DNA from: Streptomyces sp. NBC_01314
Lineage (GTDB): Bacteria > Actinomycetota > Actinomycetes > Streptomycetales > Streptomycetaceae
Assembly (NCBI RefSeq): GCF_041435215.1
Contig: NZ_CP108394.1
Span: 11,222,001 to 11,286,000, forward strand
DNA length: 64,000 nucleotides
Direction: 5' to 3'
A program made the position numbers and the translations under genes. The first letter of the stretch is position 1. Each line of letters begins with the position of its first letter. A model generated the notes under the pieces. It saw only the letters and a program-made list of their open reading frames with translations, made no database searches and was not told where the DNA came from. Below are positions 1 through 26,559 of the stretch, piece by piece.

Positions 1-1
1 G

Positions 2-379
2 CAGGTCAACGACGGCTGGTGGCGCATGGGCGACGTCGGCTACCGCACCAGGTTCGGCTGCCTGCACCTGCTGGACCGCGAGGTCGACGAGATCCCCGGC
101 GTGCAGTCCACCCTGGAGATCGAGGACAAGCTGTTCACCCGGCTGCCCGAACTCATCGAGGTCATCATCATCGCGGGCCCCGACGGACGCGCGGTGCCGG
201 TGGTGTGCACCCGCAACGACGTGCCGCTGGACGAACTGTCCTGGAAGAGCGCCGTGGTGGACCTGCCGGCCCTCGCCGACCCGGTCCAGTGGCGTCTCGA
301 GGACCTCCCGCAGACCGCCACCACCAAGATCAAGCGCCTGGAGCTGGCCCGCCTGCTGGCGGCAGGCACCGCCGGCTAG
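2..379 (+). CDS. Adenylate-forming ligase, C-terminal fragment (5' cut by window edge)
   Basis: The frame is open from base 2, so only the last 125 residues are present; the rest lies left of the window. The visible part is the end of an ANL-superfamily AMP-forming ligase: motif GDVGYRTR near the hinge and a C-terminal PQTATTKIKRLEL segment carrying the usual catalytic lysine. It aligns without gaps to the C-terminus of the ligase at 12050-13720 (shared GCLHLLDREVD, PVPVVCTR), so the two are paralogues. It ends 147 bp before the CreE-type gene on the same strand and probably shares its transcript. Inference: in ANS-pathway clusters a CreM-type ligase of this superfamily uses ATP and nitrite to diazotise an arylamine, which makes this a diazotase candidate. 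An ordinary aryl acid:CoA ligase is equally possible from sequence alone. Confidence 0.85.
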   Translation, partial: QVNDGWWRMGDVGYRTRFGCLHLLDREVDEIPGVQSTLEIEDKLFTRLPELIEVIIIAGPDGRAVPVVCTRNDVPLDELSWKSAVVDLPALADPVQWRLEDLPQTATTKIKRLELARLLAAGTAG

Positions 380-526
380 CACCCGCCCGAAAACGTCCCG
401 GCCCCCGGGGCCCCGACGGCCCGCACCCCTCATCAAGGCCCCCGGCATCCCGCTTCCCTGTCCGCGACCGGCGGCCGGTCCCCTTCCGGCCGCCGGCCGC
501 CCCTGCCCAGAAACGGAGTTGTCCCC

Positions 527-2503
527 ATGAGCAGCACCCTCGAGGTGTGTGTCATCGGTGCCGGTCCCCGAGGCCTGTCGGTCCTCGAACGCCTGCTGGC
601 CAACGAACGCAGCACCCCCTCGCACAGCGCGCTCACCGTCCATGTCGTCGACCCCTCGGCGCCCGGCGCCGGAGCGGTATGGCGCACCGGGCAGTCCCAG
701 CACCTGCTGATGAACACCGTGGCCTCGCAGATCACCGTCTTCACCGACGACAGCGCCCGCATAGGCGGCCCCATAGAACCCGGCCCCAGCCTGTACGAGT
801 GGGCCCAGAGCCTGGCACTGCTCGGCGACCCGGCCGACACCAGCCCCGCCGTCCAGGCCGAGGCCGAGCGGCTGGGCCCCGACTCCTACCCCACCCGCGC
901 CTTCTACGGCCGCTACCTGCGGGACTGCTTCGAACGCATCGTCGCGGGCGCCCCCGCCCACGTCGAGATCCGCGTACACCGCTCACGCGCCGTCGCCGCG
1001 GCCGACACCCACGGCGTGCCCGGCGGGCCGCAGGGCATCCGGCTGGAGAACGGCATCCGCCTCAACGAACTCGACGCCGTCGTGATGGCCCAGGGCCACC
1101 TCTCGGCCCGGCTGTCGGCACGCGAGGCACGCACCGCGAGCCTGGCACGCATCCACCACCTCACCTACATCACCCCGGCCAACCCGGCCGATCTGGATCT
1201 CAGCGGCATCCAGCCGGGACAGCACGTCCTGGTGCGCGGCCTGGGCCTGAACTTCTTCGACCACATGGCCCTGTTCACCCTGGGCCGCGGCGGGCGCTTC
1301 GTCCGCCAGGACGGCCGCCTGGTCTACCGCCGCTCGGGCAGCGAACCGAAACTGTTCGCCTTCTCCCGGCGCGGCGTGCCCTATCACGCACGCGGCGAGA
1401 ACGAGAAGGGCGCCACCGGCCGCTACTTCCCCACCCTGCTGACCCCCGCCTACATCACGATGCTGCGCGAGCGCTCCGCCGCCGGACAGCCGGTCAGCTT
1501 CGGCGAGGACCTGTGGCCGCTGATCTCCCGTGAGGTGGAGAGCGTCTACTACGCGACCTTGCTGAGCGCGCAGGGCCGCGGCGAGCACCGCGAGGAGTTC
1601 ACCGAACACTTCCTCCAACTGGACACCGAGGACGAGCGCGGCGCACTGCTGGACTCCTACCGCATCGCCCCACCGGAGCGCTGGAACTGGGAGCGGCTGT
1701 CCCGCCCCTACGGCGAGCGCGTCTTCACCGGCCGCGAGGACTTCACCGGCTGGCTGCTCGAGCACCTGCGGCACGACGTCGCCGAGTCCCGCCGGGGCAA
1801 CGTCAGCGGCCCGCTCAAGGCCGCCCTGGACGTGCTGCGCGACCTGCGCAACGAGATCCGCCTCGCGGTCGACCACGGCGGACTGGAGGGCGGCTCGCAC
1901 CGCGACGACCTGGAGGGCTGGTACACACCCCTGAACGCGTTCCTCTCGATCGGCCCGCCGGCCTCCCGCATCGAGGAGATGATCGCGCTGATCGAGGCCG
2001 GCGTGCTGAGCGTGACCGGCCCGGGCACGCAGGTCCGCATCGACACCACCGCCCACGTGTACTGCGCCCGCTCCACCAGCGTGCCCGGCGAGCCGGTGCG
2101 GGCCACCGCACTCATCGAGGCCCGCCTGCCCGAACCGGACCTGCGCCGCACCGAGGACCCCCTGCTCCAGCACCTCCTCGACACCGACCAGGCCACCGCG
2201 TACCGCATCGCCGCCACCGGCGGCCCGGCGTACGAGACCGGCGGGCTCGCGGTCACCGAACGCCCCTACCGGCTGCTCGACGGCCGCGGCCGCCCCCACC
2301 CCCGGCGCTTCGCCTACGGCGTTCCCACCGAGTCGGTGCACTGGGTGACCGCCGCCGGCATCCGGCCCGGCGTCGACTCCGTCACCCTCGGCGACTCCGA
2401 CGCGATCGCCCGCGCGGTACTCGCCCTGCCGCCCGCCGCCCATGTCCCCGACGGCGTACGGCCGGTCCAGGCCGACAGCGACCTGTCCGGGGTGATCGTG
2501 TGA
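527..2503 (+). CDS. creE: CreE-like FAD-dependent aspartate N-monooxygenase (nitrosuccinate-forming)
   Basis: This 658-residue FAD/NAD(P)-binding protein has an N-terminal dinucleotide motif (VIGAGPRG, residues 9-16) and the LLMNT segment typical of the FAD_NAD_binding_9 group. Length and architecture fit CreE of cremeomycin biosynthesis, which oxidises the amino group of L-aspartate to nitrosuccinate. The strongest support is the neighbour: the next gene is a CreD-type lyase overlapping by four bases (GTGA), the usual creE-creD arrangement. The ATG at 527 has a GGAG about 7 bases upstream. Expected to be cytosolic and NADPH-dependent. Family and context are clear; the substrate is inferred from the pairing. 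Confidence 0.88.
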   Translation: MSSTLEVCVIGAGPRGLSVLERLLANERSTPSHSALTVHVVDPSAPGAGAVWRTGQSQHLLMNTVASQITVFTDDSARIGGPIEPGPSLYEWAQSLALLGDPADTSPAVQAEAERLGPDSYPTRAFYGRYLRDCFERIVAGAPAHVEIRVHRSRAVAAADTHGVPGGPQGIRLENGIRLNELDAVVMAQGHLSARLSAREARTASLARIHHLTYITPANPADLDLSGIQPGQHVLVRGLGLNFFDHMALFTLGRGGRFVRQDGRLVYRRSGSEPKLFAFSRRGVPYHARGENEKGATGRYFPTLLTPAYITMLRERSAAGQPVSFGEDLWPLISREVESVYYATLLSAQGRGEHREEFTEHFLQLDTEDERGALLDSYRIAPPERWNWERLSRPYGERVFTGREDFTGWLLEHLRHDVAESRRGNVSGPLKAALDVLRDLRNEIRLAVDHGGLEGGSHRDDLEGWYTPLNAFLSIGPPASRIEEMIALIEAGVLSVTGPGTQVRIDTTAHVYCARSTSVPGEPVRATALIEARLPEPDLRRTEDPLLQHLLDTDQATAYRIAATGGPAYETGGLAVTERPYRLLDGRGRPHPRRFAYGVPTESVHWVTAAGIRPGVDSVTLGDSDAIARAVLALPPAAHVPDGVRPVQADSDLSGVIV

Positions 2504-3906
2504 CCCCCGGCCGGGAAGGAAGCACGGACGCCGACACCGGGCTGCTGTCCCCCGTCCGCGCCGGCACCCCCGTCGAGGAGGCCACCTGCGACCGGGCATG
2601 GCTGCAGGCCATGCTGGACGCCGAGGCCGCCCTGGCACGGGCGCAGGCGTCCCTGGGCACCCTGCCCGCGCACGCCGCCGAAACCATCACCCAGCTGGCC
2701 CAGGCGGACCGCCTCGACCTGCGCGCCCTGGCGCTCGCCGCCCGGGAGACGGCCAATCCGGTGGTCGCCCTGGTGCAGGCGTTCACCGCGGTGGTGGCCG
2801 ACAAGGACCCGGCGGCCGCCGAATACGTGCACCGGGGCTCCACCAGCCAGGACATCCTGGACACCGGCGCCATGCTGGTGGCCGACCGGGCCCTGAAAAT
2901 CATCCGCGCCGACCTGCGGCGCACCGCCCGGGCGCTGGCCCGGCTGGCCGCCCGGCACCGCGACACCCTCGCCGTCGGCCGCACCCTGGCCCTGCACGCG
3001 GTCCCGACCACGTTCGGCCTGCGGGCGGCCGGCTGGCGCCAACTCGTCCTTCACGCCGAGACACGGCTGGCCCGCGTCCACGAGGGCGGACTGCCCGTCT
3101 CCCTGGGCGGTGCGGCCGGCACCCTGGCCGGCTATCTGGAGCACGCGGCCGCCGGCCGCACCGGCCCGCCACCCGACCCGGACACCTACCCCGACCTCCT
3201 CATCGACGCCTACGCCGCCCAGACACACCTCGCCCGGCCGGTCCTGCCCTGGCACGCGCTGCGCACCCCCGTCGCCGACCTGGCGTCCGCGCTGGCCTTC
3301 ACCACCGGCGCGCTCGGCAAGATCGCCGTGGATGTGCAGGGCCTGGCCCGCACCGAGGTCGGTGAGGTCGGCGAACCCGGCCCGGCCGGCCGCGGCACCT
3401 CCTCGGCGATGCCGCACAAACGCAACCCGGTACTGGCCACCCTGCTGCGCAGCGCCGCCCTGCAGGTGCCCGCCCTCGCCACGGCCCTGACCCAGTGCCT
3501 GGTGTCCGAGGACGAGCGGTCCGCGGGCGCCTGGCACGCGGAATGGCAACTGCTGCGCGAGTGCCTGCGGCTGACCGGCGGAGCGGCCCACACGGCCGTC
3601 GAACTCACCGAAGGCCTGCGGGTCAGCCCCGAACGGATGCGGGCCAACCTGGACCTGACGGGCAGCCGGATCGTCTCCGAACGCGTCGCCGCACAACTCG
3701 CCCCGCTCCTCGGCAGGGACCGGGCCAGGACCGTGCTGAGCGAGGCCGCACAGCGGGCCTCGGCCGACGGCCGGCCGCTGGCGGAGGTCCTGGGCGCCCT
3801 GCCCGACCTGCCGGCGCACATCACCGACCAGCTCGCCGAACTGTGCGACCCGGCCCGCTACACCGGGGCCGCCGCCGCCCTGGTGGACCGCGCACTGCGG
3901 CACTGA
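2500..3906 (+). CDS. creD: CreD-like nitrosuccinate lyase (fumarase/aspartase superfamily)
   Basis: This 468-residue protein of the aspartase/fumarase/adenylosuccinate-lyase superfamily carries the signature loop GTSSAMPHKRNP at residues 299-310, with the catalytic serine in it. Superfamily relatives include 3-carboxymuconate cycloisomerase, a likely automatic annotation. Adjacent to a CreE homologue, the assigned role is elimination of nitrous acid from nitrosuccinate to give fumarate. The GTG start overlaps the creE stop (GTGA), so the two are translationally coupled. The stop codon runs directly into repeat copy A. With creE it forms the aspartate-nitrosuccinate route to nitrite. Confidence 0.88.
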   Translation: MTPGREGSTDADTGLLSPVRAGTPVEEATCDRAWLQAMLDAEAALARAQASLGTLPAHAAETITQLAQADRLDLRALALAARETANPVVALVQAFTAVVADKDPAAAEYVHRGSTSQDILDTGAMLVADRALKIIRADLRRTARALARLAARHRDTLAVGRTLALHAVPTTFGLRAAGWRQLVLHAETRLARVHEGGLPVSLGGAAGTLAGYLEHAAAGRTGPPPDPDTYPDLLIDAYAAQTHLARPVLPWHALRTPVADLASALAFTTGALGKIAVDVQGLARTEVGEVGEPGPAGRGTSSAMPHKRNPVLATLLRSAALQVPALATALTQCLVSEDERSAGAWHAEWQLLRECLRLTGGAAHTAVELTEGLRVSPERMRANLDLTGSRIVSERVAAQLAPLLGRDRARTVLSEAAQRASADGRPLAEVLGALPDLPAHITDQLAELCDPARYTGAAAALVDRALRH

Positions 3907-4085
3907 CCGTTCCTGTGGACTGAGCGGGAGTGAGTCCGTTCAGCCGCGCGCCCCGAACGGTCTTGGGCGAGCTGGTCCCCGGCTTACTCGACCCCGGGTG
4001 GCGACACGCATCCTGTGCGTGGTCCGGGCCCGGGAGGCCAGTTCCCTGCGCGACCTGGCCAGTTGGGTACAGCCAGAGGCGACGG
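3906..4085 (+). repeat. Intergenic repeat, copy A (structured 3' element)
   Basis: It starts at the last base of the creD stop codon and matches copy B at 10642-10850 over most of its length, including the openings ACCGTTCCTGTGGACT and the blocks CAGCCGCGCGCCCCGAACGG and ATCCTGTGCGTGGTCCGGGC. An outer arm pair ACCGTTC (3906-3912) / GAACGGT (3955-3961) and an inner GGACT/AGTCC pair can form a nested hairpin. Copy B keeps both although some bases differ. It may be a terminator, a structured RNA or the remnant of a small mobile element. Confidence 0.75.
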
Positions 4086-4487
4086 GGAGGCCCTGAACCA
4101 TCTCTCTGGTGGAGCAGGGGCCCCGCACGCTGACGCCGTACCCGGTGTCCCAGGTCGCACGATCACGTTAGCCCGATCAGCCCAGGACTCCGCAAGCCAG
4201 CAAGTAGGCGATCACACGATCGAGCTAATTCGACCTCGTGTGCACTCCTTGGCGAGCAGTTATCACCCCCCCCCGCACACCGACGCCGCACCCGGCATCC
4301 CGGCCCGCCCGCCCACACCCACCCCAACGGCCCCTGACACCCCGAGCCCGGCCAACCGGCCACCTTGCGACCGAGTCAATCCGACCGGCGTCGTACGTAC
4401 TCCTTGGCAAGCAGCCAACACCCCCCTTTCCGCCGCGGCCCGGTGCGAGCCGGCCGCGCCGGCCCCGACCCGTAGAGAGCCGAGGAA
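4086..4487. repeat. Noncoding spacer with degenerate repeat units
   Basis: No credible gene is seen. The stretch holds diverged short repeats. CCCGCACGCTGACGCCGTACC (near 4121) resembles CCCGCACACCGACGCCGCACC (near 4270). ACTCCTTGGCGAGCAG (near 4245) resembles ACTCCTTGGCAAGCAG (near 4398), each followed by a run of cytosines. A GAGCAG-plus-C-run block also follows repeat copy B near 10855. The promoter of the nitrate operon must lie in or near this spacer, but no convincing -10/-35 pair was found. Confidence 0.5.
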
Positions 4488-4490
4488 ATG

Positions 4491-5870
4491 ATGACCAGCG
4501 CACCATCCGTCCGAGGGCGGTGGATCGAGAACTGGGACCCCGAGGACGAGGAGCAGTGGGAGCGCGGCGGCCGGCGCACCGCCCGGCGCAACCTGCTGCT
4601 GTCGGTACTGTCCGAGCACATCGGCTTCTCCGTGTGGAGCATGTGGTCGGTGCTCGTGCTGTTCATGTCACCGAAAATCGGGCTGGACTTCGCCCCCGAC
4701 GAGAAATTCCTGATGGTGGTCGTACCCACCCTGGCGGGCGCACTGCTCAGACTCCCCTACAGCTACGCGGTGACCCGCTTCGGCGGCCGCAACTGGACCG
4801 TGTTCGCCTCAGCCCTGCTGCTCATACCCACCCTGCTGACCGTCTACTTCGTACAGCGGCCCGGCACCGAACTGTGGGTGTTCCTGCTCATCGGCGCGAG
4901 CGCCGGCGCGGGCGGCGGCAACTTCGCCTCCTCGATGACGAACATCACCGCCTTCTACCCCCAGCGCCACCAGGGCTGGGCACTGGGCGTGAACGCCGGC
5001 GGCGGCAACCTGGGCGTCGCCGCCGTCCAGCTGCTCGGCCTGCTGGTGATCTCCGTCGCCGGCGACACCCACCCCGCCTACGTCGCCGCCTGCTACCTCC
5101 CGCTGATCGCGCTGGTGTCCCTGCTGGCCGCGCTGCGCATGGACAACGTGGCGGTGGTGCGCACCCCGCCCGGCGCCCAGCGCGAGGCCGCCGCCAGCAG
5201 CCACACCTGGTGGATCTCCCTGCTGTACATCGGCACCTTCGGCTCCTTCATCGGCTTCGGGTTCGCCTTCGGCCTGGTCCTGCAGAGCCAGTTCGGCTCC
5301 ACCCCCCTGCAGGCCGCCTCGTTCACCTTCCTCGGGCCGCTGCTCGGCTCGCTGGCCCGCCCCGCCGGCGGACGGATGGCCGACCGGTGGGGCGGAGCCC
5401 AGGTGACGCTGTGGTCCTTCGCCGGCATGGCCGCCGGTATCGGCGTGCTGCTCACCGCCACCCGCAGCGGATCCTTCCCGCTGTTCGTGACCGGCTTCAC
5501 GGCACTGTTCGTGGTGAGCGGCATCGGCAACGGCTCCACCTACAAGATGATCCCGGTGGTCTTCGCCCGGCAGGCCGAGACCGCCGTCACCTCCGGCCAC
5601 GACGCCGCCGCGGCCTTCGCCCGCGCACGCCGCCTGTCCGGCGCGGTCATCGGCATCGCCGGAGCGGCGGGCGCCCTCGGCGGCGTCGCCATCAACCTGG
5701 CCTTCCGCACGGCCTACGGCCAACTGGGCAGCGGCGAGGCCGCCTTCTACACCTTCCTCCTCTACTACGGGCTGTGCGCGGCCCTGATCCGGGCGGTGTA
5801 CCTGCGCGGCGAACGCAGCAGCGGCGCACAGCCCCCGGCCCGGAAAGCGCAGGCCTCCCATGTCCGCTGA
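4491..5870 (+). CDS. narK: NarK-type nitrate/nitrite MFS transporter
   Basis: About 459 residues with roughly twelve hydrophobic segments. Both nitrate-signature loops of the NarK family are visible: VNAGGGNLG in the first half and GIGNGSTYKMIP in the second. It is expected in the cytoplasmic membrane, importing nitrate or exchanging it for nitrite. A GAGGA sequence at 4482-4486 gives good spacing to the second ATG (4491); the ATG at 4488 is an alternative. It overlaps the nitrate reductase gene by 11 bases, starting a four-gene operon of nitrate uptake and reduction inside a cluster that also makes nitrite from aspartate. Confidence 0.9.
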   Translation: MTSAPSVRGRWIENWDPEDEEQWERGGRRTARRNLLLSVLSEHIGFSVWSMWSVLVLFMSPKIGLDFAPDEKFLMVVVPTLAGALLRLPYSYAVTRFGGRNWTVFASALLLIPTLLTVYFVQRPGTELWVFLLIGASAGAGGGNFASSMTNITAFYPQRHQGWALGVNAGGGNLGVAAVQLLGLLVISVAGDTHPAYVAACYLPLIALVSLLAALRMDNVAVVRTPPGAQREAAASSHTWWISLLYIGTFGSFIGFGFAFGLVLQSQFGSTPLQAASFTFLGPLLGSLARPAGGRMADRWGGAQVTLWSFAGMAAGIGVLLTATRSGSFPLFVTGFTALFVVSGIGNGSTYKMIPVVFARQAETAVTSGHDAAAAFARARRLSGAVIGIAGAAGALGGVAINLAFRTAYGQLGSGEAAFYTFLLYYGLCAALIRAVYLRGERSSGAQPPARKAQASHVR

Positions 5871-7983
5871 GCACCCCGCACCCGGACCGGGCACAGTGCC
5901 GCCGACGGCACGGCAGAGCACGACGCACTGCCCGTACTGCGCCCTGCAGTGCGCAACGGTGCTGTCGGGCGAACGCGGCGGCGTCGCCGTACGGCCCTCG
6001 CCCGACTTCCCGGTCAACCAGGGCGGCCTGTGCCACAAGGGGTGGACGGCACCCGCCGTGCTCGGCGCCGCCGACCGGCTGCGCACCCCCCTGGTGCGCG
6101 GCACCGACGGCGAACTCGCCCCGGCGAGCTGGGACGACGCGCTCACCCTGGTGGCCGCGGAACTGACGGCGATCCGCGCACGCCACGGCGCCGACGCGGT
6201 CGCGGTGTTCGGCGGCGGCGGACTGACCAACGAAAAGGCCTACACCCTCGGCAAGTTCGCGCGCCTGGCCCTGGGCACCGCCCAGATCGACTACAACGGC
6301 CGCTTCTGCATGTCGTCGGCGGCCGCGGCCGCAGGCGAGGCGTTCGGCCTCGACCGCGGCCTGCCCTTCCCGGTGAGCGACCTCGCCGACGCCGATGTGG
6401 TGCTGCTGGCCGGCGCCAACCCGGCCGAGACGATGCCGCCCCTCATGCGCCACCTGGAGCGGGCCGACCTCATCGTCATCGACCCCCGCCGCACCCGCAC
6501 CGCCCAGCAGGCCGCACTGCACCTGCAGCCGGCCCCCGGCACCGACCTCGCCCTGGCCCTGGGCCTGCTGCACGCGGCCGTCACCGAGGGCCTCATCGAC
6601 AAGGAGTACATCGACACCCGCACCACCGGCTTCGAGGACGCCTGGGCCAGCTGTGTCGCCTGGTGGCCGGAGCGGGTCGAACAGGTCACCGGCGTCCCCG
6701 CGCACGACCAGCGCACCGCGATCCGGATGCTCGCCGCGGCCCGCCGGAGCTATCTGCTGACGGGACGCGGAGCGGAACAGCACAGCAAGGGAACCGACAC
6801 CGTCGCGGCGTTCATCAACCTGGCACTCGCACTGGGCCTGCCGGGCCGCACGGGCAGCGGCTTCGGGACCCTGACCGGGCAGGGCAACGGACAGGGCGGC
6901 CGCGAAATGGGCCAGAAAGCCGACCAGCTGCCCGGCTACCGCTCGCTCACCGACCCCGCGGACCGCGCCCACGTGGCCTCCGTCTGGGGCGTGGACGCCA
7001 ACACCCTGCCCCAGCCGGGCCGCAGCGCCTACGAACTCCTCGACGCCCTGGCCACCGAGAACGGGCCCCGGGCACTGCTGGTGTTCGGGTCCAACCCGGT
7101 CGTCTCCGCGCCCCGGGCCGCCCGGGTCACCGACCGGCTGAACGCCCTGGACCTGCTGGTCGTGGCCGACTTCGTGCCCTCCGAGACGGCCGCCCTCGCC
7201 GATGTGGTGCTGCCCGTCGCCCAGTGGGCCGAGGAAGAAGGCACCCTGACCAGCCTGGAAGGCAGGGTCCTGCGCCGGCGCGCCCACCTGAGCCCGCCGC
7301 CCGGCACCCGCACCGACCTCGAAGTCCTCCACCACCTCGCCGTCCGCCTCGGCCAGCCCGCCCACCGCTTCCCCACCCGGCCCCGGGAGGTCTTCGAGGA
7401 ACTGCGCCGCGCCACGGCCGGCAGCCGCGCGGACTACTCGGGCATCAGCTACGCACGCCTGGACGCCGGCGAAGCACTGCACTGGCCCTGCCCCGCCGCC
7501 GGCGGCGCGGGCCACCCCGGCACACCCAGACCGTTCCTGGACCGCTTCGCGCACCCCGACGGACGCGCCCGGTTCACCGCCGTGGACCACCGCCCGCCCG
7601 CACAGACACCCGGCAGCCGATTCCCCCTGTACGCCACGACCGGCAGGGTGCTGGCCCACTACCAGTCGGGTGCGCAGACCCGCCGGGTACCCGACCTGGT
7701 CGCGGCGGCGCCGGAGGCGGTCGTCGAGATGCACCCGGACACCGCCCGCCACCACCACCTGGCCGACGGACAGCTCGCCGACGTCACCTCGGCCTACGGC
7801 ACCGCCCGGCTGAGGGTCCGTCTGACCCCCACGGCACGCAGGGACACCGTGTTCGTGCCCTTCCACTATCCGGGCCGGGCCCGCGCCAACCTGCTCACCG
7901 GGGACGCGCTGGACCCCCGCAGCCGGATGCCCGAGTTCAAGGTGAGCGCCGTACGCGTCACACCGGCGGGGGAGGCGCCATGA
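5860..7983 (+). CDS. nasA: Assimilatory-type nitrate reductase, molybdopterin catalytic subunit
   Basis: This 707-residue protein of the molybdopterin oxidoreductase family reduces nitrate to nitrite. The N-terminus carries a [4Fe-4S] site with Cys24, Cys27, Cys31 and Cys58 (CPYCALQC ... GGLCHKGW). NGRFCMSSA places the likely Mo-ligand cysteine at residue 150. A C-terminal molydop-binding domain is visible near YQSGAQTRR. There is no twin-arginine signal, so it is cytosolic like NasA/NasC and unlike NapA. It lacks the C-terminal BFD domain some homologues carry; that domain sits on the next gene instead. The stop overlaps the next start (ATGA). Molybdenum-cofactor genes are not in the window. 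Confidence 0.92.
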   Translation: MSAEHPAPGPGTVPPTARQSTTHCPYCALQCATVLSGERGGVAVRPSPDFPVNQGGLCHKGWTAPAVLGAADRLRTPLVRGTDGELAPASWDDALTLVAAELTAIRARHGADAVAVFGGGGLTNEKAYTLGKFARLALGTAQIDYNGRFCMSSAAAAAGEAFGLDRGLPFPVSDLADADVVLLAGANPAETMPPLMRHLERADLIVIDPRRTRTAQQAALHLQPAPGTDLALALGLLHAAVTEGLIDKEYIDTRTTGFEDAWASCVAWWPERVEQVTGVPAHDQRTAIRMLAAARRSYLLTGRGAEQHSKGTDTVAAFINLALALGLPGRTGSGFGTLTGQGNGQGGREMGQKADQLPGYRSLTDPADRAHVASVWGVDANTLPQPGRSAYELLDALATENGPRALLVFGSNPVVSAPRAARVTDRLNALDLLVVADFVPSETAALADVVLPVAQWAEEEGTLTSLEGRVLRRRAHLSPPPGTRTDLEVLHHLAVRLGQPAHRFPTRPREVFEELRRATAGSRADYSGISYARLDAGEALHWPCPAAGGAGHPGTPRPFLDRFAHPDGRARFTAVDHRPPAQTPGSRFPLYATTGRVLAHYQSGAQTRRVPDLVAAAPEAVVEMHPDTARHHHLADGQLADVTSAYGTARLRVRLTPTARRDTVFVPFHYPGRARANLLTGDALDPRSRMPEFKVSAVRVTPAGEAP

Positions 7984-9422
7984 GCGGCGGCGACGTCGTC
8001 ATCGTCGGCGGCGGCCCCGCCGCCCACCGCCTGGCCGGCCGCCTGCACCCGCTCGGCCACCGGGGCACGGTGAGCGTCATCGGCGCCGAACCCCGCCCCG
8101 CCTACAACCGGGCCCTGCTCGGCTCGGTCCTGGACGGCACGCTGAGCGCGGACCGCCTCACCCTGCCCGCCCTGCCCGCCGCGGTACGCCAACTCACCGG
8201 CACACGCGCCAGGAGCATCGACCGCGCCCGGCGCACCGTACACCTGGACGACGGCCGCACACTGCCCTACGACATCCTCGTCCTGGCCACCGGCGCGCGG
8301 CCGCGGATACCGGACCTGCCCGGCCTGGTGACCGCGCGCGGACAGCTCGCCGAGGGAGCCCGCACCCTGCGCACCGCCACCGACTGCGCCCCCCTGCCCC
8401 CCGGACCCGTCGTCGTCCTGGGCGGGGGAGTCCTCGGTGTCGAGTCCGCCCTGGCACTGCGCCGCGCCGGAAAGGAGGTGACCCTCGTCCAGCGCTCCGC
8501 CCGGCTGATGCGACGCCAGCTGGACGGCCCGGCCTCCGGCGTGCTGGCGCAGTGGGCCCAGAGCCGGGGCGTCACCCTCCACCTGGGCCGCCAGGCCCAG
8601 GAGTACGCGCCCGGCAAGCTGGTCCTGGACGACGGACAGGTACTGGCGGCCGGCACCCTGCTGCTGTGCACGGGCACCCGGCCGGAGACCGCGCTGGCCC
8701 GCGCGAGCTCTCTCGCGGTGCGCGAGGGGATCGTCGTCGACGCACGGCTGCGCACCGGCGATCCGCTCATCCACGCGATGGGGGACTGCGCCCAGCACCC
8801 GGACGTGACCGGCACGACCCTGATCCAGGCATGGGACCAGGCCGACGCCCTCGCCGGCATCCTCACCGCCACCGGCACGGGGTACCGGCCCGCACGCCAC
8901 GTACTGCGCCCGCGGATACGGGGCATGGACATCGTCTCGCTCGCCCCGGGCGCCACGGAACAGGACACGGACACGGCGGTGTCCCTGCGGGACACAGCCC
9001 GCGGCCGCTACGCCCGCCTCGCTCTGCGCGAGGGCCGTATCCACACAGGAGTCGTCGTCGGCCCGGGCGCCGCCGTCGCCGCGGTCAGCGGCCTGTACAC
9101 CCGTGACGCACCGGTGCCCGCCGACCTGCTCGCCCTGCTGACCGGCACCGACGCGCCCTACGCGGGCGGTGACGCCCTGGCCGACGACGCGGTGGCCTGC
9201 CACTGCAACCACGTCACCTTCCGCAGGCTGAAGGCCGCCTGGGCCGAGGGGGCGCACGACAGCAAGGCACTGGCCCGGGCGACCCGGGCGACGACGGGAT
9301 GCGGCGGCTGCACCCCGGTCGTACGGCAGCTGTGCACCACACTCGCCGCCGCCGGCGCAGGGGCCGCAGGGCCCGCAGGCACCCACACAGCGGTGGACAC
9401 CGCAGGAGGAGGGACACCGTGA
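7980..9422 (+). CDS. FAD/NAD(P)H reductase with BFD [2Fe-2S] domain (nitrate reductase electron-transfer subunit)
   Basis: A 480-residue pyridine-nucleotide-disulfide-type flavoprotein. FAD motif VIVGGGPAAHRLAG is at the N-terminus and NAD motif VLGGGVLGVESALAL is central. A C-terminal BFD-like domain has the CxC/CxxC pattern at Cys407, Cys409, Cys441 and Cys444. This resembles the flavin/iron-sulfur parts of NasB and the N-terminal part of NirB, but the siroheme sulfite/nitrite reductase domains are absent. It should pass electrons from NAD(P)H to the nitrate reductase and is not itself a nitrite reductase. It is coupled to both neighbours by four-base overlaps. Confidence 0.85.
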   Translation: MSGGDVVIVGGGPAAHRLAGRLHPLGHRGTVSVIGAEPRPAYNRALLGSVLDGTLSADRLTLPALPAAVRQLTGTRARSIDRARRTVHLDDGRTLPYDILVLATGARPRIPDLPGLVTARGQLAEGARTLRTATDCAPLPPGPVVVLGGGVLGVESALALRRAGKEVTLVQRSARLMRRQLDGPASGVLAQWAQSRGVTLHLGRQAQEYAPGKLVLDDGQVLAAGTLLLCTGTRPETALARASSLAVREGIVVDARLRTGDPLIHAMGDCAQHPDVTGTTLIQAWDQADALAGILTATGTGYRPARHVLRPRIRGMDIVSLAPGATEQDTDTAVSLRDTARGRYARLALREGRIHTGVVVGPGAAVAAVSGLYTRDAPVPADLLALLTGTDAPYAGGDALADDAVACHCNHVTFRRLKAAWAEGAHDSKALARATRATTGCGGCTPVVRQLCTTLAAAGAGAAGPAGTHTAVDTAGGGTP

Positions 9423-10639
9423 CCACGCGCACGCTGGTCGTGGCCGGCCACGGAATGGCGGGCCACCGGCTGGTCGAGGAAATGCTGGCCGGCGACCGGC
9501 ACGGGCGGTGGCGCATCGTCGTACTGGCCGAGGAAGAGCGGCCCGCCTACGACCGGGTGGCGCTGTCCACCCTCCTGGGCGGCGCCCGCGCCGACGATCT
9601 CGCGCTGGCCGGCCCCGCCGTCCTGGCCGACCGCCGCCTGCGGCTGCGGCTGAACACGAAGGTGAGCGCCGTCGACCGCCGGGCCAGAAGGGTGATGTGC
9701 GCGGACGGAACCGAGTTCGGATACGACGCGCTGGTCCTGGCCACCGGCTCCAGGCCGTTCGTGCCCCCGGTCGCCGGACACGGGCTGCCGGGGTGCTTCG
9801 TCTACCGGACGGTGCAGGACGTCGAGGCGATCCGCGCGGCCGCGGTGCCCGGCCGCGCTGCCGTGGTGGTCGGCGGCGGCCTGCTGGGACTGGAGGCCGC
9901 GGGCGGCCTGCGGCTGCTGGGCATGCGGCCCCATGTGGTGGAGTTCGCCCCCTGGCTGATGGCCCAGCAGATCGACGAGGGCGGCGGCCGGGTACTGGCC
10001 GAGGCGATCACCCGGCTCGGCGTGCGCGTGCACTGCCCGAGCGCCGTCCACGCCGTCGGCGCGGGCCCGGACGGCCGCGCCGACCGCGTGGAACTGGACG
10101 ACGGCACCGTCCTTGACGCAGCCCTCGTCGTCTTCGCCGCCGGGGTACGCCCGCGCGACGAACTCCACGCCCCCGGGCTCGTGCGCGGCGAACGCGGCGG
10201 CTTCCTGGTGGACACGTGGTGCCGCACCGCGGACGAACACATCTTCGCGATCGGCGAGTGCGCGGCCGTCGAGGGCCGCTGCCACGGCCTGGCCGCCCCC
10301 GGCCTGCGGATGGCCGAGACCGTCGCCCGCCGGCTCCTCGGTGTGCCGGGCGAGGCGTTCACCGGGGCGGACACCTCCGCGAGCCTGAAGCTCCTGGGCG
10401 TGGAGGTGGCCGGTTTCGGCGACGCCCACGCGCGCTCGCACGGGGCCGTCGAGTACGTGCGCGAGGACCGGCGGGCCGGCACCTACGCCAAGGTGGTCCT
10501 GGACGCCGACGGCCGCACGGTCCTGGGCGGAGTCCTCGCCGGAGACACCCGGGCCTATCCGGTCCTGCGCGCCCTGCTCGGCCGGCCGCTGACGGCCTGC
10601 CCCGACGACCTGCTGGCCGCCCCGCCCGCCCGCTGCTGA
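9419..10639 (+). CDS. FAD-dependent NAD(P)H oxidoreductase (NirB N-terminal-like)
   Basis: 406 residues with a GTG start overlapping the previous stop (GTGA) and a strong AGGAGGAGGG ribosome site. An N-terminal VVAGHGMAGHRL nucleotide-binding motif, ERPAYDRVALS and a central VVVGGGLLGLEAAGG NAD motif match the flavin domain of NirB/NasB-type enzymes. It is a second reductase subunit of the nitrate operon, without a BFD domain. The operon ends here, 2 bp before repeat copy B. Which of the two flavoproteins feeds the reductase, or whether both do, cannot be told from sequence. Confidence 0.82.
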   Translation: MTTRTLVVAGHGMAGHRLVEEMLAGDRHGRWRIVVLAEEERPAYDRVALSTLLGGARADDLALAGPAVLADRRLRLRLNTKVSAVDRRARRVMCADGTEFGYDALVLATGSRPFVPPVAGHGLPGCFVYRTVQDVEAIRAAAVPGRAAVVVGGGLLGLEAAGGLRLLGMRPHVVEFAPWLMAQQIDEGGGRVLAEAITRLGVRVHCPSAVHAVGAGPDGRADRVELDDGTVLDAALVVFAAGVRPRDELHAPGLVRGERGGFLVDTWCRTADEHIFAIGECAAVEGRCHGLAAPGLRMAETVARRLLGVPGEAFTGADTSASLKLLGVEVAGFGDAHARSHGAVEYVREDRRAGTYAKVVLDADGRTVLGGVLAGDTRAYPVLRALLGRPLTACPDDLLAAPPARC

Positions 10640-10641
10640 AA

Positions 10642-10850: not shown

Positions 10851-10906
10851 TGTGAGCAGTTCCAACCCCCGCCCGCGCACCCGCCCGCCGTGCCCGCGGA
10901 CATGCC

Positions 10907-11097: not shown

Positions 11098-11682
11098 TCA
11101 GCTGTCGTAGGGCAGGCGCGCCCTGGCCTCCTTGGTGGCCACCGCCCACCAGCTCAGCTTGTCCCACAGGACCTTGGCGGCCGCTTCCGCGCCGGCCGGA
11201 TCGATGAGGTTGCCGTCGGTGTCGAACTGCCCCCACGGCCCGTGGAAGCTGACGGCGTCGCGGACGGGGACCGCGTGCAGCTCGTTGACGATGTGGCGCA
11301 GCTGCTGGACGGCCCGCAGACCGCCGGCCAGGCCGCCGTAGCCGACGAAACCGACCGGCTTGGCGTGCCACTCGTGCTGGGTCCAGTCCAGGGCGGCCTT
11401 CAGGGCGGCGGGGAAACTGTGGTTGTACTCCGGCGTCACCACGACGAAGCCGTCCGCCGCCGACAGCCGGGCCGAGAACGCGGCGAGCAGTTCGGCGACC
11501 TCCGGTGCCGGCTCGTCGCTCAGAGCGGTGGGCAGCGGGAAGTCCGCCAGGTCGACCAGGTCCACCTCGATGTCGTCACGCTGGCCGGCGGTGCCGACGA
11601 ACCAGTTCGCGATCGTGGGGCCGAAACGGCCCTTGCGCACGCTCGACAGGATCACGGCCACGCGGATGCGGTCACTAGGCAT
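11098..11682 (-). CDS. NADPH-dependent FMN reductase (flavodoxin-like fold)
   Basis: 194 residues of the NADPH-dependent FMN reductase family. The phosphate-binding loop SSVRKGRFG is near residue 14 and TPEYNHSFP supplies the second FMN contact. It probably gives reduced FMN to a partner oxygenase; the acyl-CoA-dehydrogenase-fold oxygenase at 49397-50644 is the best partner in the cluster. The start chosen (ATG at 11682) has GAAAGGG upstream. The longer upstream frame runs into the palindromic operator and is not used. The gene has its own operator (11726-11743), so it is likely a direct target of the TetR regulator. Confidence 0.85.
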   Translation of the reverse strand: MPSDRIRVAVILSSVRKGRFGPTIANWFVGTAGQRDDIEVDLVDLADFPLPTALSDEPAPEVAELLAAFSARLSAADGFVVVTPEYNHSFPAALKAALDWTQHEWHAKPVGFVGYGGLAGGLRAVQQLRHIVNELHAVPVRDAVSFHGPWGQFDTDGNLIDPAGAEAAAKVLWDKLSWWAVATKEARARLPYDS

Positions 11683-11725
11683 GTCAGCCCTTTCACTACG
11701 GTCAGTCCTCTCCCCACAGAAGAAC

Positions 11726-11830: not shown

Positions 11831-11842
11831 GGTCGGTCGGGG

Positions 11843-12049: not shown

Positions 12050-13720
12050 TCAGCAGGCGGCGGTCTCGGAGCGGACCGCCGCCCTGCCCTGCCCGCCCGC
12101 CGTGGCCGCCTGCTCGGTCCTCGCGGAGCCTTCCCGGTCCGCGCCGGCGTCCTTGGCCGCCGTGAGGCTCTCGGCGAGCTGCCGGGCCAGCTCCAGCCGC
12201 CGGATCTTCGCGGTGGCGGTGCGCGGCAGGTCGGCGAGACGGCGCTGGACGGGCGCGCCCAGGGCGGGCTGGTCGGCGACGGCCGCCTGCCAGCGCTCCA
12301 GGTCCAGCGGTACATCGCCGCGGGTGCACACCACCGGCACGGGACGCTTGTCGGGGCCCGGCACGACGACGAGTTCGGTCAGCTCCTCCAGCCGGTGCAG
12401 CACCGCGTCCTCGACCTCCAGGGTGGAGTCGATCCCCTCGATGACGTCGACCTCGCGGTCGAGCAGGTGCAGACAGCCCCACCTGGTGCGGTAACCGACA
12501 TCGCCGCCGCGCCACCACTCGCCGATGACCTGCTGCTCGAAGCGCTCCTGCTCGCCGTAGTACGTCAGCGCCCGCCCCGCGGTGGCCACGTCGATGTAGC
12601 CGGGGGTCTCCTTGGAGGGAGTGCCGCCCCGGGACACCAGCCGGTACTTGGTCATGCCGGGCGTGGGGTAGCCCTGGCAGCGGCCGTCCGCCTTCAGCGC
12701 GTTGCGGCGCCGGTAGGTGCGGGCGGCCAGCGGACCGCACTCGCTCTGCCCGTACACCTGGAGGAACACCGGGCTGCGCCGGTCCGAGGCGTGCAGGAAC
12801 TTGTGCATCGTGCTCGGGTGGATCGCGTCGAAGGTGCTGTTGAAGTACTTGACGTTGGAGACGGGCCGGCGCGGGTCGTCCAGCATCTCCTCCCACTCCA
12901 GGAACGAGTTGGGGTGGGTCTCCAGGACACCCGGACGGTGCCTGACCAGGATGTCGGCCACGTGCGCCGGGCTGGCGTCGTTCATGAACACCATCGGCAT
13001 CCCGCGCATCTGCAGCACGGCCAGCCCCAGATACATCCGCGAATGCACGTACGACACGTGCATGGCCACCGTCTCCCGCTTGCGGATGAAGGAGACGACC
13101 TTGTCCTGCCAGTTGCCGCGGGCGCCCAGTGAACGCGCCGAGTGCACCACCAGCTTGGGAATGCCGGTCGTCCCCGACGTGTGGGTCATCAGCGCCGGCT
13201 GGTCGGGGCCGAGCAGCACCGGACGGCGCTCGGCAGCGCCCGCCAGGGAGGCGAAGGAGACGGCGCCGGGGTGGGAGCCCGTGGTGGTGATGACCCGCGC
13301 GGTCAGGTCGGCCAGCGGCAGGCCGGCCAGCTCACCGGTCAGCTTCGCCTCGTCGGTCAGCACCGTGGGCCGCTCCAGGCGCTGGAGGAGCTTGCCGATG
13401 CTCTCCCCGTCCAGGTGCGGGGAGAGCATGACCGGCACCGCGCCGATCCGGGCCGCGCCGCACGCCAGCACGGTGATGTCGAAGTTCGACGTCTTGTACA
13501 CGGCCACGTGCTCGCTGGGCCGCACACCGGCGGCCCACAGCCGGTTGGCCGTCTCGGCCACATGCCCGGCGAACTCCGCGACGGTCAGTTTCTGCCCCGC
13601 CGAGGGGAAGGCCGCGAGGTCGTGGTCGAGTGAGATCGGGGTGGTGCCGAACTTCTCGGCGGCGCGCTCGGAGACGACCCCGAGGTAGAGGAACTTCTTG
13701 CTCTTCGGAACCTTGAACAT
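12050..13720 (-). CDS. Adenylate-forming ligase (candidate ATP-dependent diazotase or aryl-CoA ligase)
   Basis: A 556-residue ANL-superfamily enzyme with intact motifs: P-loop TSGTTGIPK at 181-189, YGQSE at 323-327, hinge GDVGYRTR at 406-413 and catalytic Lys505 in PRTATAKIRR. It activates a carboxylate, or in CreM-type members activates nitrite, with ATP. The start at ATG 13720 has AGGAAGAG upstream. It is a full-length paralogue of the ligase fragment beside creE (bases 2-379). No acyl-carrier-protein gene is nearby. Given the nitrite-forming genes, a diazotase role is reasonable but is inference; CoA ligation of 3-hydroxyanthranilate or another aryl acid is the alternative. Confidence 0.85.
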   Translation of the reverse strand: MFKVPKSKKFLYLGVVSERAAEKFGTTPISLDHDLAAFPSAGQKLTVAEFAGHVAETANRLWAAGVRPSEHVAVYKTSNFDITVLACGAARIGAVPVMLSPHLDGESIGKLLQRLERPTVLTDEAKLTGELAGLPLADLTARVITTTGSHPGAVSFASLAGAAERRPVLLGPDQPALMTHTSGTTGIPKLVVHSARSLGARGNWQDKVVSFIRKRETVAMHVSYVHSRMYLGLAVLQMRGMPMVFMNDASPAHVADILVRHRPGVLETHPNSFLEWEEMLDDPRRPVSNVKYFNSTFDAIHPSTMHKFLHASDRRSPVFLQVYGQSECGPLAARTYRRRNALKADGRCQGYPTPGMTKYRLVSRGGTPSKETPGYIDVATAGRALTYYGEQERFEQQVIGEWWRGGDVGYRTRWGCLHLLDREVDVIEGIDSTLEVEDAVLHRLEELTELVVVPGPDKRPVPVVCTRGDVPLDLERWQAAVADQPALGAPVQRRLADLPRTATAKIRRLELARQLAESLTAAKDAGADREGSARTEQAATAGGQGRAAVRSETAAC

Positions 13721-13890
13721 AAGGACTCTTCCTCTGGTGAACCGAAACACGGAATAAGAACTCCCCCCGAAAACCTCGCACACGGCATTGCCGCGGAACA
13801 GAGAAATCCCGTGAATGCGTCATCTCGTGAATCCGCCCGGAAGCAATAACGGGAAGAAGGAAAGAGGGGGGGTGGGGAATGGGGAATGGG

Positions 13891-13967: not shown

Positions 13968-14606
13968 CTACAGCGACTGCCTGAGTGCCTCGGCCACCTT
14001 CATGGTGCGTACGGTCTGGTAGCCGACGGCGGCGAGGTTGTCGTCGGTGACGTTCTGCGCGAGGTGGCCGGGAATGGCCTGCAGGCCCGAAGTGGCGCTG
14101 ACCCCGTAGGGGTTGCCGTTGCTCGGTGCGAGCAGGATGTCGTCGGTCACGCCGGGCGGCACGATCACGGCCCCCCAGTGGTAGAAGACGTTGCTCAGGG
14201 ACAGCAGGGTGGACTCCTGGCCGCCGTGCTGGGTGCCCGTCGAGGTGAAGGCGGACATCGCCTTGTTCATCAGCCCGCGCCGGGCGTGCAGTTCGAAGGT
14301 CTGGTCGATGAAGTGCTTGAGCGGGCCGGCGAGCAGGCCGTAGCGGCCCGGAGTGCCCCAGACGACGGCGTCGGCCCAGTCCAGGTCACCGATCTCGGCC
14401 ACCGCGACGTCCCGGCTGGCGGCGACGTGCTCGGTGTTCGCCTGGCTCCATTCCTTGTAGTTGGGTGCGAGCGGTTCACCGGTGATCTCCGCGACCCGGC
14501 GCAGCCGCACGTCGGCACCCGCCTTCTCCGCCGCCTCGGCAGCGGCGACAGCCAGCTTGTGGATGTTTCCGGTGGCCGAGTAATAAACGATGGCGACATT
14601 GGTCAT
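13968..14606 (-). CDS. WrbA-type flavodoxin / NAD(P)H:quinone oxidoreductase 1
   Basis: 212 residues. The N-terminal FMN loop VYYSATGNIHKLA, the GTPGRYGLLAG segment and the GNPYG motif are typical of WrbA. It is a tetrameric, soluble quinone reductase family that performs two-electron reduction of quinones. A paralogue sits at 15241-15855 with a SnoaL-like gene between, likely one operon. Family members could reduce quinone-like, diazo-quinone or azo intermediates; that role is inference. The gene is followed by a strong terminator. Confidence 0.85.
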   Translation of the reverse strand: MTNVAIVYYSATGNIHKLAVAAAEAAEKAGADVRLRRVAEITGEPLAPNYKEWSQANTEHVAASRDVAVAEIGDLDWADAVVWGTPGRYGLLAGPLKHFIDQTFELHARRGLMNKAMSAFTSTGTQHGGQESTLLSLSNVFYHWGAVIVPPGVTDDILLAPSNGNPYGVSATSGLQAIPGHLAQNVTDDNLAAVGYQTVRTMKVAEALRQSL

Positions 14607-14753
14607 GGACGTACTGCTCCCTCATCGGATTCGTGCCCGCGCCGTCCTTCCGGCTGCCGGTGCATGCCCCATCGTGTCGCGGGGCCCGGCCGGGCAGCGA
14701 TTTCTTTCCCATAGTCCGTCAGGTACCGTCCCCCTCCCGGCGCGGTTCTCTTC

Positions 14754-14809
14754 CCGCAGTCCGCAGTCCGCAGTCCGCAGTCCGCAGTCCGCAGTCCGCA
14801 GTCCGCAGG
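14754..14809. repeat. Tandem heptamer repeat (CCGCAGT)n
   Basis: Seven perfect copies of CCGCAGT plus one degenerate copy, in the noncoding gap between the WrbA-like gene and the SnoaL-like gene. It is a microsatellite-like slippage tract, and no protein is encoded across it. Confidence 0.95.
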
Positions 14810-14823
14810 CGGGGGGCGGGGGT

Positions 14824-15207
14824 TCAGCTGCCGCCCGTCTCCACGCCGGGCGGGTTGTCGATGATGTAGCGCCACAGTCCGTCCGGGCCGCGGCGGGCGA
14901 CGTCGGTGGCGGTGCCCTCGATGTGCACCCGCTCGCCGTCCGGGCCGGCGCCGTCGATGACGAAGTCGCCGATCAGCAGGGCCGTGTCGTCGTAGACGTA
15001 GGTGTGCCGCAGGCTGATCTCGATCGGGACGCCCAGGGCCAGAAAGCTGCTGGTCGCCTGCCGGCGGCCGTCACCGCTGACCACCACGCCCGGCCGCAGC
15101 ACACGGACCGCCCCGGGTTCGAAGAGCCGGTCGATGGCGGCGAGGTCCTTGGCGTTGAAGGCCTCGACAAAGGTCTGGGGCAGCGTGGCCGGGTCGCTGA
15201 CTGCCAT
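14824..15207 (-). CDS. SnoaL/NTF2-like small protein
   Basis: 127 residues with the pattern of the SnoaL-like/NTF2 fold: an N-terminal helix with FVEAFNAKDLAAIDRLF, then beta-strand-rich sequence ending GLWRYIIDNPPG. Members act as cyclases, isomerases or small hydroxylases, and many are unassigned. GAGGAGAG precedes the ATG. It lies between two WrbA paralogues in the same direction. Its resemblance to PhzA/B is only at fold level, and the phenazine condensation partner PhzF is missing, so I do not assign that role. Confidence 0.75.
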   Translation of the reverse strand: MAVSDPATLPQTFVEAFNAKDLAAIDRLFEPGAVRVLRPGVVVSGDGRRQATSSFLALGVPIEISLRHTYVYDDTALLIGDFVIDGAGPDGERVHIEGTATDVARRGPDGLWRYIIDNPPGVETGGS

Positions 15208-15240
15208 GTTCTCTCCTCAAGCGTTCTCATCAGGTGGTCG

Positions 15241-15855
15241 TCAGGCGGCGGCCCGGACAGGTGCGGCGGCCTTCAGGGCCGCCGCGACATGGATGGTGCG
15301 GCGGGTCTGGTAGGCGATGGCGCCGACGTTCTCGTCGTGGATGAAACCGATGCGGTTGCCGGCGACGGTGCTCGCGCCGTACGGGTTGCCGTTGTTCTTC
15401 TCGTACAGCACCGGATCGGCGGAGCCGGTGGCGACGATGACCGATCCCCAGTGGCAGACGGCGTTGTGCAGCGCGAGGATCGCGGTCACCTGGCCGCCGT
15501 GCTCGGCGGAGCCGGAGGCGAAGGCGGAGACGGCCTTGTGCAGCAGGCCGCCGTGGATCGACAGCGACGAGGTGGTGTTGATGAACTGCATCAGCTGCGG
15601 CGCGGCGAGGCCGAAGTGGACGGGTGTGCCGAGCAGCACGGCGTCGGCCCACTTCAGATCGTCCACGGACGCCTCGGGTATCTCCAGGGCGTCGGCCGCG
15701 TGCTCGTCGGAGCCGGGCCGTCCCGTGGCGGCGGTCTCCGGCACCCGGCGCAGCCGTACCTCGGCGCCCTGTTCGGCGGCGGCGTCGGCCGCGGCCCGGG
15801 CGAGCCGGTAGGTGGAACCGGTGGACGAGTAGTAGATGACGGCGACGTTGGTCAT
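15241..15855 (-). CDS. WrbA-type flavodoxin / NAD(P)H:quinone oxidoreductase 2
   Basis: 204 residues, beginning MTNVAVIYYSSTGSTYRLA, with GTPVHFGLA and NNGNPYGAS. It is clearly paralogous to the gene at 13968-14606 but diverged in the middle. AGGGAG lies upstream of the ATG at 15855. It is a soluble FMN-dependent quinone reductase, with the same possible role in reducing quinonoid or N-N intermediates. Two copies in one operon suggest different substrates or a mixed oligomer; neither can be shown from sequence. Confidence 0.85.
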   Translation of the reverse strand: MTNVAVIYYSSTGSTYRLARAAADAAAEQGAEVRLRRVPETAATGRPGSDEHAADALEIPEASVDDLKWADAVLLGTPVHFGLAAPQLMQFINTTSSLSIHGGLLHKAVSAFASGSAEHGGQVTAILALHNAVCHWGSVIVATGSADPVLYEKNNGNPYGASTVAGNRIGFIHDENVGAIAYQTRRTIHVAAALKAAAPVRAAA

Positions 15856-15959
15856 GTGGGTGGCTCCCTGGGCGTACCGGTGACTCGGGTGGCGTGCGGG
15901 GACGTTCGGCATCGTGGTCCGCCGCCCGGCACGGCGGCAACGAAGCGTCCGCGAGTGCG

Positions 15960-19423: not shown

Positions 19424-19479
19424 GTCCTGGACATTACGCATCGACGATGTCCGCGGTGAAGGCCACGCTTCTTTTAATG

Positions 19480-21078: not shown

Positions 21079-21084
21079 CGCTTT

Positions 21085-21885: not shown

Positions 21886-21895
21886 CACCGTCTCC

Positions 21896-25644: not shown

Positions 25645-25735
25645 GGTGGTCTCGGTTCCTTTCTCCGCACGGTGTGCCGCCCGCCGCGCCGCATGACGCG
25701 GCCGCGGCGGGGCGGTTCCGTGCTCCGGTACAGGG

Positions 25736-26506: not shown

Positions 26507-26559
26507 GTCGTGCCTCTCCTTCACATGCCGTGCGGGCAGGGGCTGTTCGGTGCGGCGGC

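Follow-up and report, generated by a model that had tools for sequence, protein, structure and literature searches.

Within a 64,000-nucleotide stretch of the Streptomyces sp. NBC_01314 genome, six consecutive genes, all on the + strand, appear to place two routes to nitrite side by side in a single biosynthetic cluster. This stretch, hereafter the window, covers G000:C1:11222001-11286000, close to the right-hand end of a contig of 11.33 Mb (G and L handles are our own for genomes and loci), and gene starts within it come from a simple in-house gene caller. Its first positions (1..379, + strand) hold an open reading frame fragment that is the 3′ end of a Pzm18/CreM-like AMP-forming ligase of 522 amino acids, referred to here as ANL1, whose whole gene was recovered by gene calling across the window edge (window -1189..379, L012:12811-14378) and recognized with PF00501 and ligase models. 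The six genes, each confirmed, encode a CreE homologue (527..2503), a CreD homologue (2500..3906), a NarK-family nitrate/nitrite transporter with an MFS_1 match (4488..5870), a NasC-type molybdopterin assimilatory nitrate reductase of a subtype that we call clade 1 (5860..7983), a NasB-like electron-transfer subunit that combines an FAD/NAD(P)H flavoprotein with a C-terminal BFD [2Fe-2S] domain (7980..9422), and a NirB-like flavoprotein of 406 amino acids with FAD and Rubredoxin_C domains only (9419..10639). The creE and creD genes overlap by 4 bases and the four nitrate genes overlap successively, narK and nasC by 11 bases. The initial annotation had the nitrate genes follow creE and creD directly; the genes, their order and their strand are as it described, but 581 bases separate creD from narK in the window, the two overlapping by 4 bases in some other genomes.

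The first of the two routes is the aspartate–nitrosuccinate (ANS) pathway. CreD exceeds the cut-off of the nitrosuccinate lyase model NF052556 (779 bits versus 650) and has CreD itself (5xny, E 6.8e-181) as its best match in the PDB. CreE carries PF13454 and matches no NCBIfam model; its sole PDB match at E<=1e-10 is 8cp2, described as “FAD-binding protein” (E 4.4e-198). On these matches, the window holds an ANS lyase above a curated cut-off with an adjoining CreE-type monooxygenase, the latter a proposed L-aspartate N-monooxygenase that would yield nitrosuccinate, from which the former is predicted to release nitrite and fumarate. Aspartate hydroxylases of the CreE kind are described as using NADPH and O2 (PMC10404684). 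More distant CreE-like proteins (54–62% identical) occur at G009:C1:2973563-2975392, at G238:C263:31169-33073 and, matching in two pieces, in the genome of the window itself at G000:C1:7969486-7971720; those of G009 and G238 have no CreD-family match nearby, and the stray proteins may constitute a separate group of N-oxygenases.

The second route would start from nitrate. The NasC-type protein contains the Fe4S4, molybdopterin and dinucleotide-binding domains (PF04879, PF00384 and PF01568) and the motifs CPYCALQC and NGRFCMSS, the latter of which we take to be the nitrate-reductase-like context of the molybdenum-ligand cysteine, a residue kept in 33 of 33 NasC rows compared. The FAD and BFD flavoprotein (PF07992 and PF04324) has all four BFD cysteines. 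The last flavoprotein, however, matches only positions 1–384 of the 794 in the NirB model TIGR02374, and profile scans found no NIR_SIR domain in it or in the operon. Of the genome’s three NIR_SIR matches, two are at 2.80 Mb and one at 7.62 Mb, megabases from the cluster at 11.22 Mb; this agrees with the proposed lack of a siroheme nitrite reductase in the operon, and no match lies just outside it. The genome contains two further NasC-like copies, 63–64% identical to that of the window. It also contains a second nitrate-linked aromatic cluster (L046, G000:C1:412001-432000) with a NasC (~62%), two FAD proteins lacking NIR_SIR, a fused anthranilate-synthase-type protein, a class II 3-deoxy-D-arabino-heptulosonate 7-phosphate (DAHP) synthase, and AMP-binding, aldehyde-dehydrogenase-like and NarK-like MFS proteins; neither CreE nor CreD was called there.

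The loss of the siroheme half is not peculiar to this genome. In a tree of 33 NasC rows built by a quick method, clade 1 forms one clade of 28 rows (97 by the Shimodaira–Hasegawa-like approximate likelihood ratio test, SH-aLRT) adjoining three operons with a long NirB. These sister operons (L043–L045), Streptomyces narK-nasC-nasB-nirB operons of the assimilatory kind, match the window in gene order and have a NasC that is 66–68% identical, but each encodes a NirB of 865–938 amino acids with the siroheme cysteine motif; NIR_SIR itself was found in both of those scanned (L043 and L044), L045 being judged by the motif only. By comparison, the NirB-like protein of clade 1 has 370–467 amino acids in the 26 called loci besides the window, with the BFD and siroheme motifs in none of the 26, and in the named genomes 26 of 26 uncut copies have 374–467 amino acids and no siroheme motif. 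The truncation thus characterizes this NasC subtype as a whole, members outside diazo clusters included. With no member retaining the siroheme half of NirB, the nitrate operon would be expected to stop at nitrite.

The surroundings of the six genes fit a cluster that would consume nitrite. Downstream, on the − strand, lie genes for an NADPH-dependent FMN reductase-like protein (11098..11682, PF03358) and a second AMP-forming ligase, ANL2 (12050..13783), which is ~53% identical to ANL1 as measured on its left-arm copy; PF00501 places both ligases in the AMP-binding (ANL) family. These are followed, also on the − strand and by profile matches, by a WrbA-like quinone reductase, a SnoaL-like protein and a second WrbA-like quinone reductase (13968..15912), an Rrf2-family regulator (18938..19441, TIGR00738/PF02082), and an FAD aromatic hydroxylase-like protein, an arylamine acetyltransferase-like protein and a FabH-type ketosynthase III (19480..22951). 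Beyond them lies a 3-hydroxyanthranilate block (23108..27729, − strand) of PhzE/anthranilate-synthase-like protein, isochorismatase-like hydrolase, 2,3-dihydro-2,3-dihydroxybenzoate dehydrogenase and class II DAHP synthase-like protein, the functions assigned to pzm6-9 in Table 3 of the penzonemycin paper (PMC9323291). That cluster, from Streptomyces sp. SCSIO 40020, is the closest published one that we found, and the window shares with it, as its table lists them, the 3-hydroxyanthranilate genes, CreD and CreE (pzm11/12), a CreM-like ligase (pzm18), a quinone-reductase-like dehydrogenase (pzm13) and an Rrf2 regulator (pzm14). The table also lists an SRPBCC protein (pzm19), and the gene upstream of ANL1 is 77–78% identical to L018:4142-4681, which matches Polyketide_cyc2 (SRPBCC), the 137-residue call of the window’s own copy having no Pfam match. 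ANL1 is 68% identical to the ligase of a pzm-like locus in S. halstedii (L129) that repeats several pzm gene sizes, and its likeness to Pzm18/CreM is by way of this intermediate. The cluster therefore resembles a pzm/cre-type diazo (N–N bond) biosynthetic cluster, predicted to build an N–N bond, and ANL1, whose relatives (66–92% identity) are linked to creE/creD and/or nitrate genes in most, although not all, loci, is the proposed ATP-dependent diazotase and the expected consumer of nitrite.

It is informative to ask how often the two routes meet in other genomes. CreD exceeds its cut-off in 106 of 392 Streptomyces genomes, and 101 of these (the window’s included) were searched with the NasC of the window. 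Two kinds of close NasC emerged, one 69–83% identical to the query (clade 1) and the other 62–66%. Clade 1 occurs in 19 of the 101 CreD-positive genomes and adjoins CreD in 12 of the 19; of the other kind, counted by eye, none of 80 rows lies within 250 kb of CreD on the same contig, rows on different contigs giving no distance. Linkage between this NasC subtype and CreD exceeds what chance would give. Across all 392 genomes, no fewer than 28 carry clade 1 (27 by search, plus the frameshifted copy of G249), a figure that is a minimum because the search, with its limit of E 1e-268, can miss fragmented copies and did miss that of G249. Among these 28, 13 stand beside CreE/CreD and 4 more belong to ANL1 clusters that lack a working CreE/CreD; a single copy (G214) neighbors an ANL2-type ligase, and 10 are elsewhere; the thirteenth, G384, has a CreD of 64% identity that lies below the cut-off and was found on reading the locus. 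The co-occurrence of creE/creD with a nearby nitrate reductase, which the initial annotation had suggested looking for across genomes, is hence a recurrent one. Siroheme-less clade 1 operons were also seen next to an FMN reductase, thioesterase and AMP ligase (L039), a modular polyketide synthase (L041), an MMPL protein (L027) and an ANL2-type ligase cluster (L033), and in further settings (L040, L032, L029 and L031) as judged by gene-call similarity.

A second survey, in named genomes, took ANL1 as its starting point; this set shares genomes with the first and the counts are not additive. Among the best 80 of 87 loci, 69 were kept at >=58% identity and 11 below that were left out. Both routes occur in 18 of these 69 loci, CreE/CreD without the nitrate genes in 15, the nitrate genes without CreE/CreD in 14, a partial CreE/CreD in 3 and neither route in 19; as ANL1 was the query, it is necessarily present in every state. 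Three of the 15 loci with CreE/CreD only (L120, L127 and L129) end inside CreD or no more than ~1.3 kb after it, and nitrate genes further on could be missed there; Streptantibioticus ferralitis (L096), which retains a stump of narK, was scored in this group. Four of the 19 loci with neither route end right after ANL1 at contig ends. Clusters of this family come mostly from Streptomyces, the nitrate-only one of Streptomyces albogriseolus JCM 4616 (L099) being an example; nitrate-only clusters are also found in Micromonospora, Longimycelium and Kibdelosporangium. As an observation on ANL1-type clusters at large, L051, L055, L063, L069 and L070 have, like the 15 uncut named loci, neither route within ~10 kb.

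On the ANL1 tree of the named set (quick method, SH-aLRT support only), the states are interleaved, the nitrate module and CreE/CreD each requiring 12 changes, and the starred branches require the nitrate-only label to change at least 4 times. The ANL1 tree of the 392-genome set gives the same picture with 7 and 8 changes, one genome (G330) being scored there as having both routes from two contigs (L025 and L058). Such counts do not distinguish gain from loss. G271 has the layout of the window minus the nitrate genes, its creD being followed directly by the FMN reductase, ANL2 and the rest; the window and L050 represent the same cluster with and without the nitrate module. Two loci hold what may be called fossils. 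In G069, creD is reduced to a 268-residue remnant with a spoiled signature loop and creE is gone from the locus; ANL1, all four nitrate genes and the genes for 3-hydroxyanthranilate keep their full length there. In S. ferralitis, creE and creD are full-length while narK is a 118-residue stump and nasC is absent; Streptomyces sp. RPT161, its sister on the ANL1 tree, carries every gene of the set in matching surroundings. Each route has therefore been lost while the other stayed. Furthermore, the four nitrate-only genomes of the 392-genome set have no CreD above the cut-off anywhere. Weaker full-length matches in three of them (G238, G069 and G009; 523–585 bits) were considered as CreD and set aside as PcaB, being over the PcaB cut-off and beside protocatechuate-pathway genes, although they still score more bits on the CreD than on the PcaB models.

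Where both routes are present, there are signs of coupling and of selection on both. Three of 12 loci, and 4 of 18 in the named genomes, have creD overlapping narK by 4 bases, with one genome common to both sets; S. lateritius JCM 4389 (L122) is an example. In 12 of the 14 nitrate-only loci narK lies 3′ of ANL1 on the same strand with gaps of 2–185, the remaining two (L118 and L138) being rearranged nearby. In seven pairs of dual clusters, the ratio of nonsynonymous to synonymous substitution rates (dN/dS, from our own Nei–Gojobori script) is 0.10–0.44 for CreE, 0.18–0.28 for CreD, 0.16–0.29 for NarK and 0.15–0.30 for NasC; the value for the FAD and rubredoxin-type flavoprotein in the pair formed by the window and L082 was dropped because contig ends gave a false match. 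With values well below 1 for both routes, neither looks abandoned, though the nasC of one dual cluster (G249) is frameshifted.

Taken together, these observations lead us to think it quite probable that a pzm/cre-type diazo cluster here feeds its AMP-ligase diazotase with nitrite from two supplies, which would be exchangeable over evolution. In the first, CreE would oxidize L-aspartate to nitrosuccinate with O2 and NADPH, and CreD would free nitrite. In the second, NarK would import nitrate and the NasC-type molybdoenzyme would reduce it to nitrite, with electrons presumably passing from NAD(P)H through the FAD and [2Fe-2S] subunit and the truncated NirB-like flavoprotein; lacking the siroheme half of NirB, the operon would halt there. 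ANL1, perhaps together with ANL2, would then activate nitrite with ATP and diazotize an aromatic amine derived from 3-hydroxyanthranilate. On this scheme, labeled nitrogen would be expected to reach the product from nitrate as well as from aspartate, and a dual supply might respond to oxygen or to nitrate. That such a cluster could draw nitrite from both aspartate and nitrate was the central proposal of the initial annotation, and recurrence, dN/dS below 1, the missing siroheme half, the single-route relatives and the fossils all argue for it. The interpretation is well supported by comparison, with the biochemical functions predicted.

Several observations weigh against this interpretation. 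The models that would name the proteins outright are not reached: the NasC-type protein scores 739.6 bits on its top NCBIfam match, NF047855 NasC, under the cut-off of 1100 (for this reason we label it NasC-type and not a NasC equivalog), NarK scores 287.4 bits on NF011608 (cut-off 836) and 278.9 bits on TIGR00886 (cut-off 311.7), and on the AvaA6 diazotase model NF058622 (cut-off 975) ANL1 and ANL2 score 83.5 and 55.1 bits. In the window, creD and narK stand 581 bases apart, and nasC in the dual cluster of G249 is split by an apparent frameshift. The siroheme-domain genes elsewhere in the host could drain nitrite. Two of the four nitrate-only genomes (G009 and G238) hold a CreE-like protein (57%) elsewhere. 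The 19 of 69 ANL1 loci with neither route nearby (15 of them uncut) mean that a linked nitrite source is not obligatory, and the 10 of 28 clade 1 copies in other contexts, for example beside an MMPL protein (L027) or a polyketide synthase (L041), mean that diazo clusters are not the only setting of the siroheme-less operon.

It is also worth considering what else the nitrate genes might do. They could form an ordinary nitrogen-assimilation or dissimilation operon that lies beside the cluster by accident, as the assimilatory type of its NasC, NarK and FAD/BFD subunit and those same 10 outside copies would allow. Such an operon would not be expected to recur with CreD or ANL1, to lack the siroheme half throughout the subtype, or to appear in ANL1 clusters without creE/creD, and the genome has its two other NasC-like copies; we consider this explanation very unlikely. 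A second possibility is that the operon makes nitric oxide (NO) or handles surplus nitrite, with NarK exporting the nitrite formed by CreE/CreD and the molybdoenzyme making NO from nitrite, as has been proposed for alanosine. NarK relatives can exchange nitrate and nitrite, a point in its favor. Likewise, the reductase genes alnP/Q/R of the alanosine cluster have been linked to NO supply (PMC10831120). However, the nitrite reductase half is absent from the operon, characterized diazotases such as CmaA6 are described as using nitrite (PMC10777205), and 14 of the 69 loci have the operon but not CreE/CreD, so that there would be no ANS nitrite there to export or reduce, all of which makes this explanation very unlikely. 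It is also very unlikely that each route serves its own ligase or product, with, for instance, CreE/CreD supplying ANL1 and nitrate supplying ANL2. The cluster does hold two ligases, but ANL2 is present in L050 and L071 (ANS only) as well as in the nitrate-only cluster of G009 and does not track the nitrate genes; the idea of ANL2 as a special partner of the nitrate route was dropped for the same lack of co-occurrence.

The reading of two exchangeable supplies can also be set against known systems. Unlike the window, the penzonemycin cluster has no nitrate transporter or reductase in its Table 3 (PMC9323291). The cremeomycin (CreE/CreD/CreM) and ava/cma systems resemble the window in coupling CreE/CreD nitrite to an ATP-dependent AMP-ligase diazotase, the nitrite-using chemistry being published for CmaA6, but the cma/ava gene table of that paper lists no nitrate genes (PMC10777205). 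Nitrate and nitrite reductase genes do have precedents in biosynthetic clusters. For alanosine, the alternative reductase route was reportedly described by Wang and Ryan in 2023. Both the pyrrolomycin and the alanosine cluster are described as containing such genes, and the alanosine homologues alnP/Q/R replace the ANS genes in some strains, the route being described as leading to NO via nitrate and nitrite reductases (PMC10831120, PMC11705231). The cluster in the window differs in that the nitrite reductase half is missing, an AMP ligase is the expected user and both routes are in one cluster. In the open-licence literature, we did not find the pairing of nitrate reductase genes with CreE/CreD or a diazotase described, which is no proof of its being unpublished. 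The suggestion that this is a new metabolic arrangement thus stands only in part: both routes in one cluster and the missing nitrite reductase half are distinctive, but the layout recurs in named genomes and reductase genes have been seen before in biosynthetic clusters. The ANS pathway and nitrate assimilation are both known, and the dual arrangement is a variant of these and not a new kind.

Other features of the locus deserve mention. The start of the cluster (window 1-13783) lies in a terminal inverted repeat, with a 100% identical ANL1-to-ANL2 copy on the left arm (G000:C1 ~92119-107007, L072), and gene deletions would therefore need to remove both copies. Mobile-element genes occur nearby: a resolvase-like and transposase-like pair at window -4349 to -2323, by eye between a dehydrogenase and the ANL1 side, and a DDE_5 endonuclease at 29740-30993. 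A repeat of ~190–210 bases follows both the creD stop (3907-4090) and the stop of the last flavoprotein (10641-10852); we considered these copies as excision footprints of the nitrate genes and rejected the idea, as both are members of a repeat family found across the genome (21 places match, the two here and their left-arm copies among them) and gave no blastn match in the loci compared from other genomes. An Rfam scan of window 1-30000 gave nothing at gathering scores, and no sigma-70-like promoter or terminator was found in the creD–narK region (3800-4600). Sensors of the NsrR type have a usual motif of three cysteines; the Rrf2 regulator of the cluster, considered as such a nitrite or NO sensor, was rejected at 22 bits versus a cut-off of 182 and by eye has one cysteine below the usual three.

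For Streptomyces and its relatives, these comparisons make it likely, in our view, that one operon ties the N–N bond both to aspartate, in an oxygen-dependent manner, and to soil nitrate via a truncated assimilation operon, with lineages swapping, adding and dropping supplies and nitrate entering as a direct building block. This would offer one answer to the question of how diazotase clusters without CreE/CreD obtain their nitrite; among ava-type clusters, 72 of 134 are reported to lack avaE/D, and the explanations put forward there are genes at another site, a different route to nitrite or an exogenous supply of it (PMC10777205). Siroheme-less narK-nasC operons might also serve as a genome-mining mark for N–N bond chemistry, and clusters with both routes, with the aspartate route only and with the nitrate route only could act as natural controls for studying the recruitment of primary nitrogen metabolism to secondary metabolism and its tuning by oxygen and nitrate. 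If this interpretation is correct, nitrate from the environment would be built directly into a specialized metabolite.

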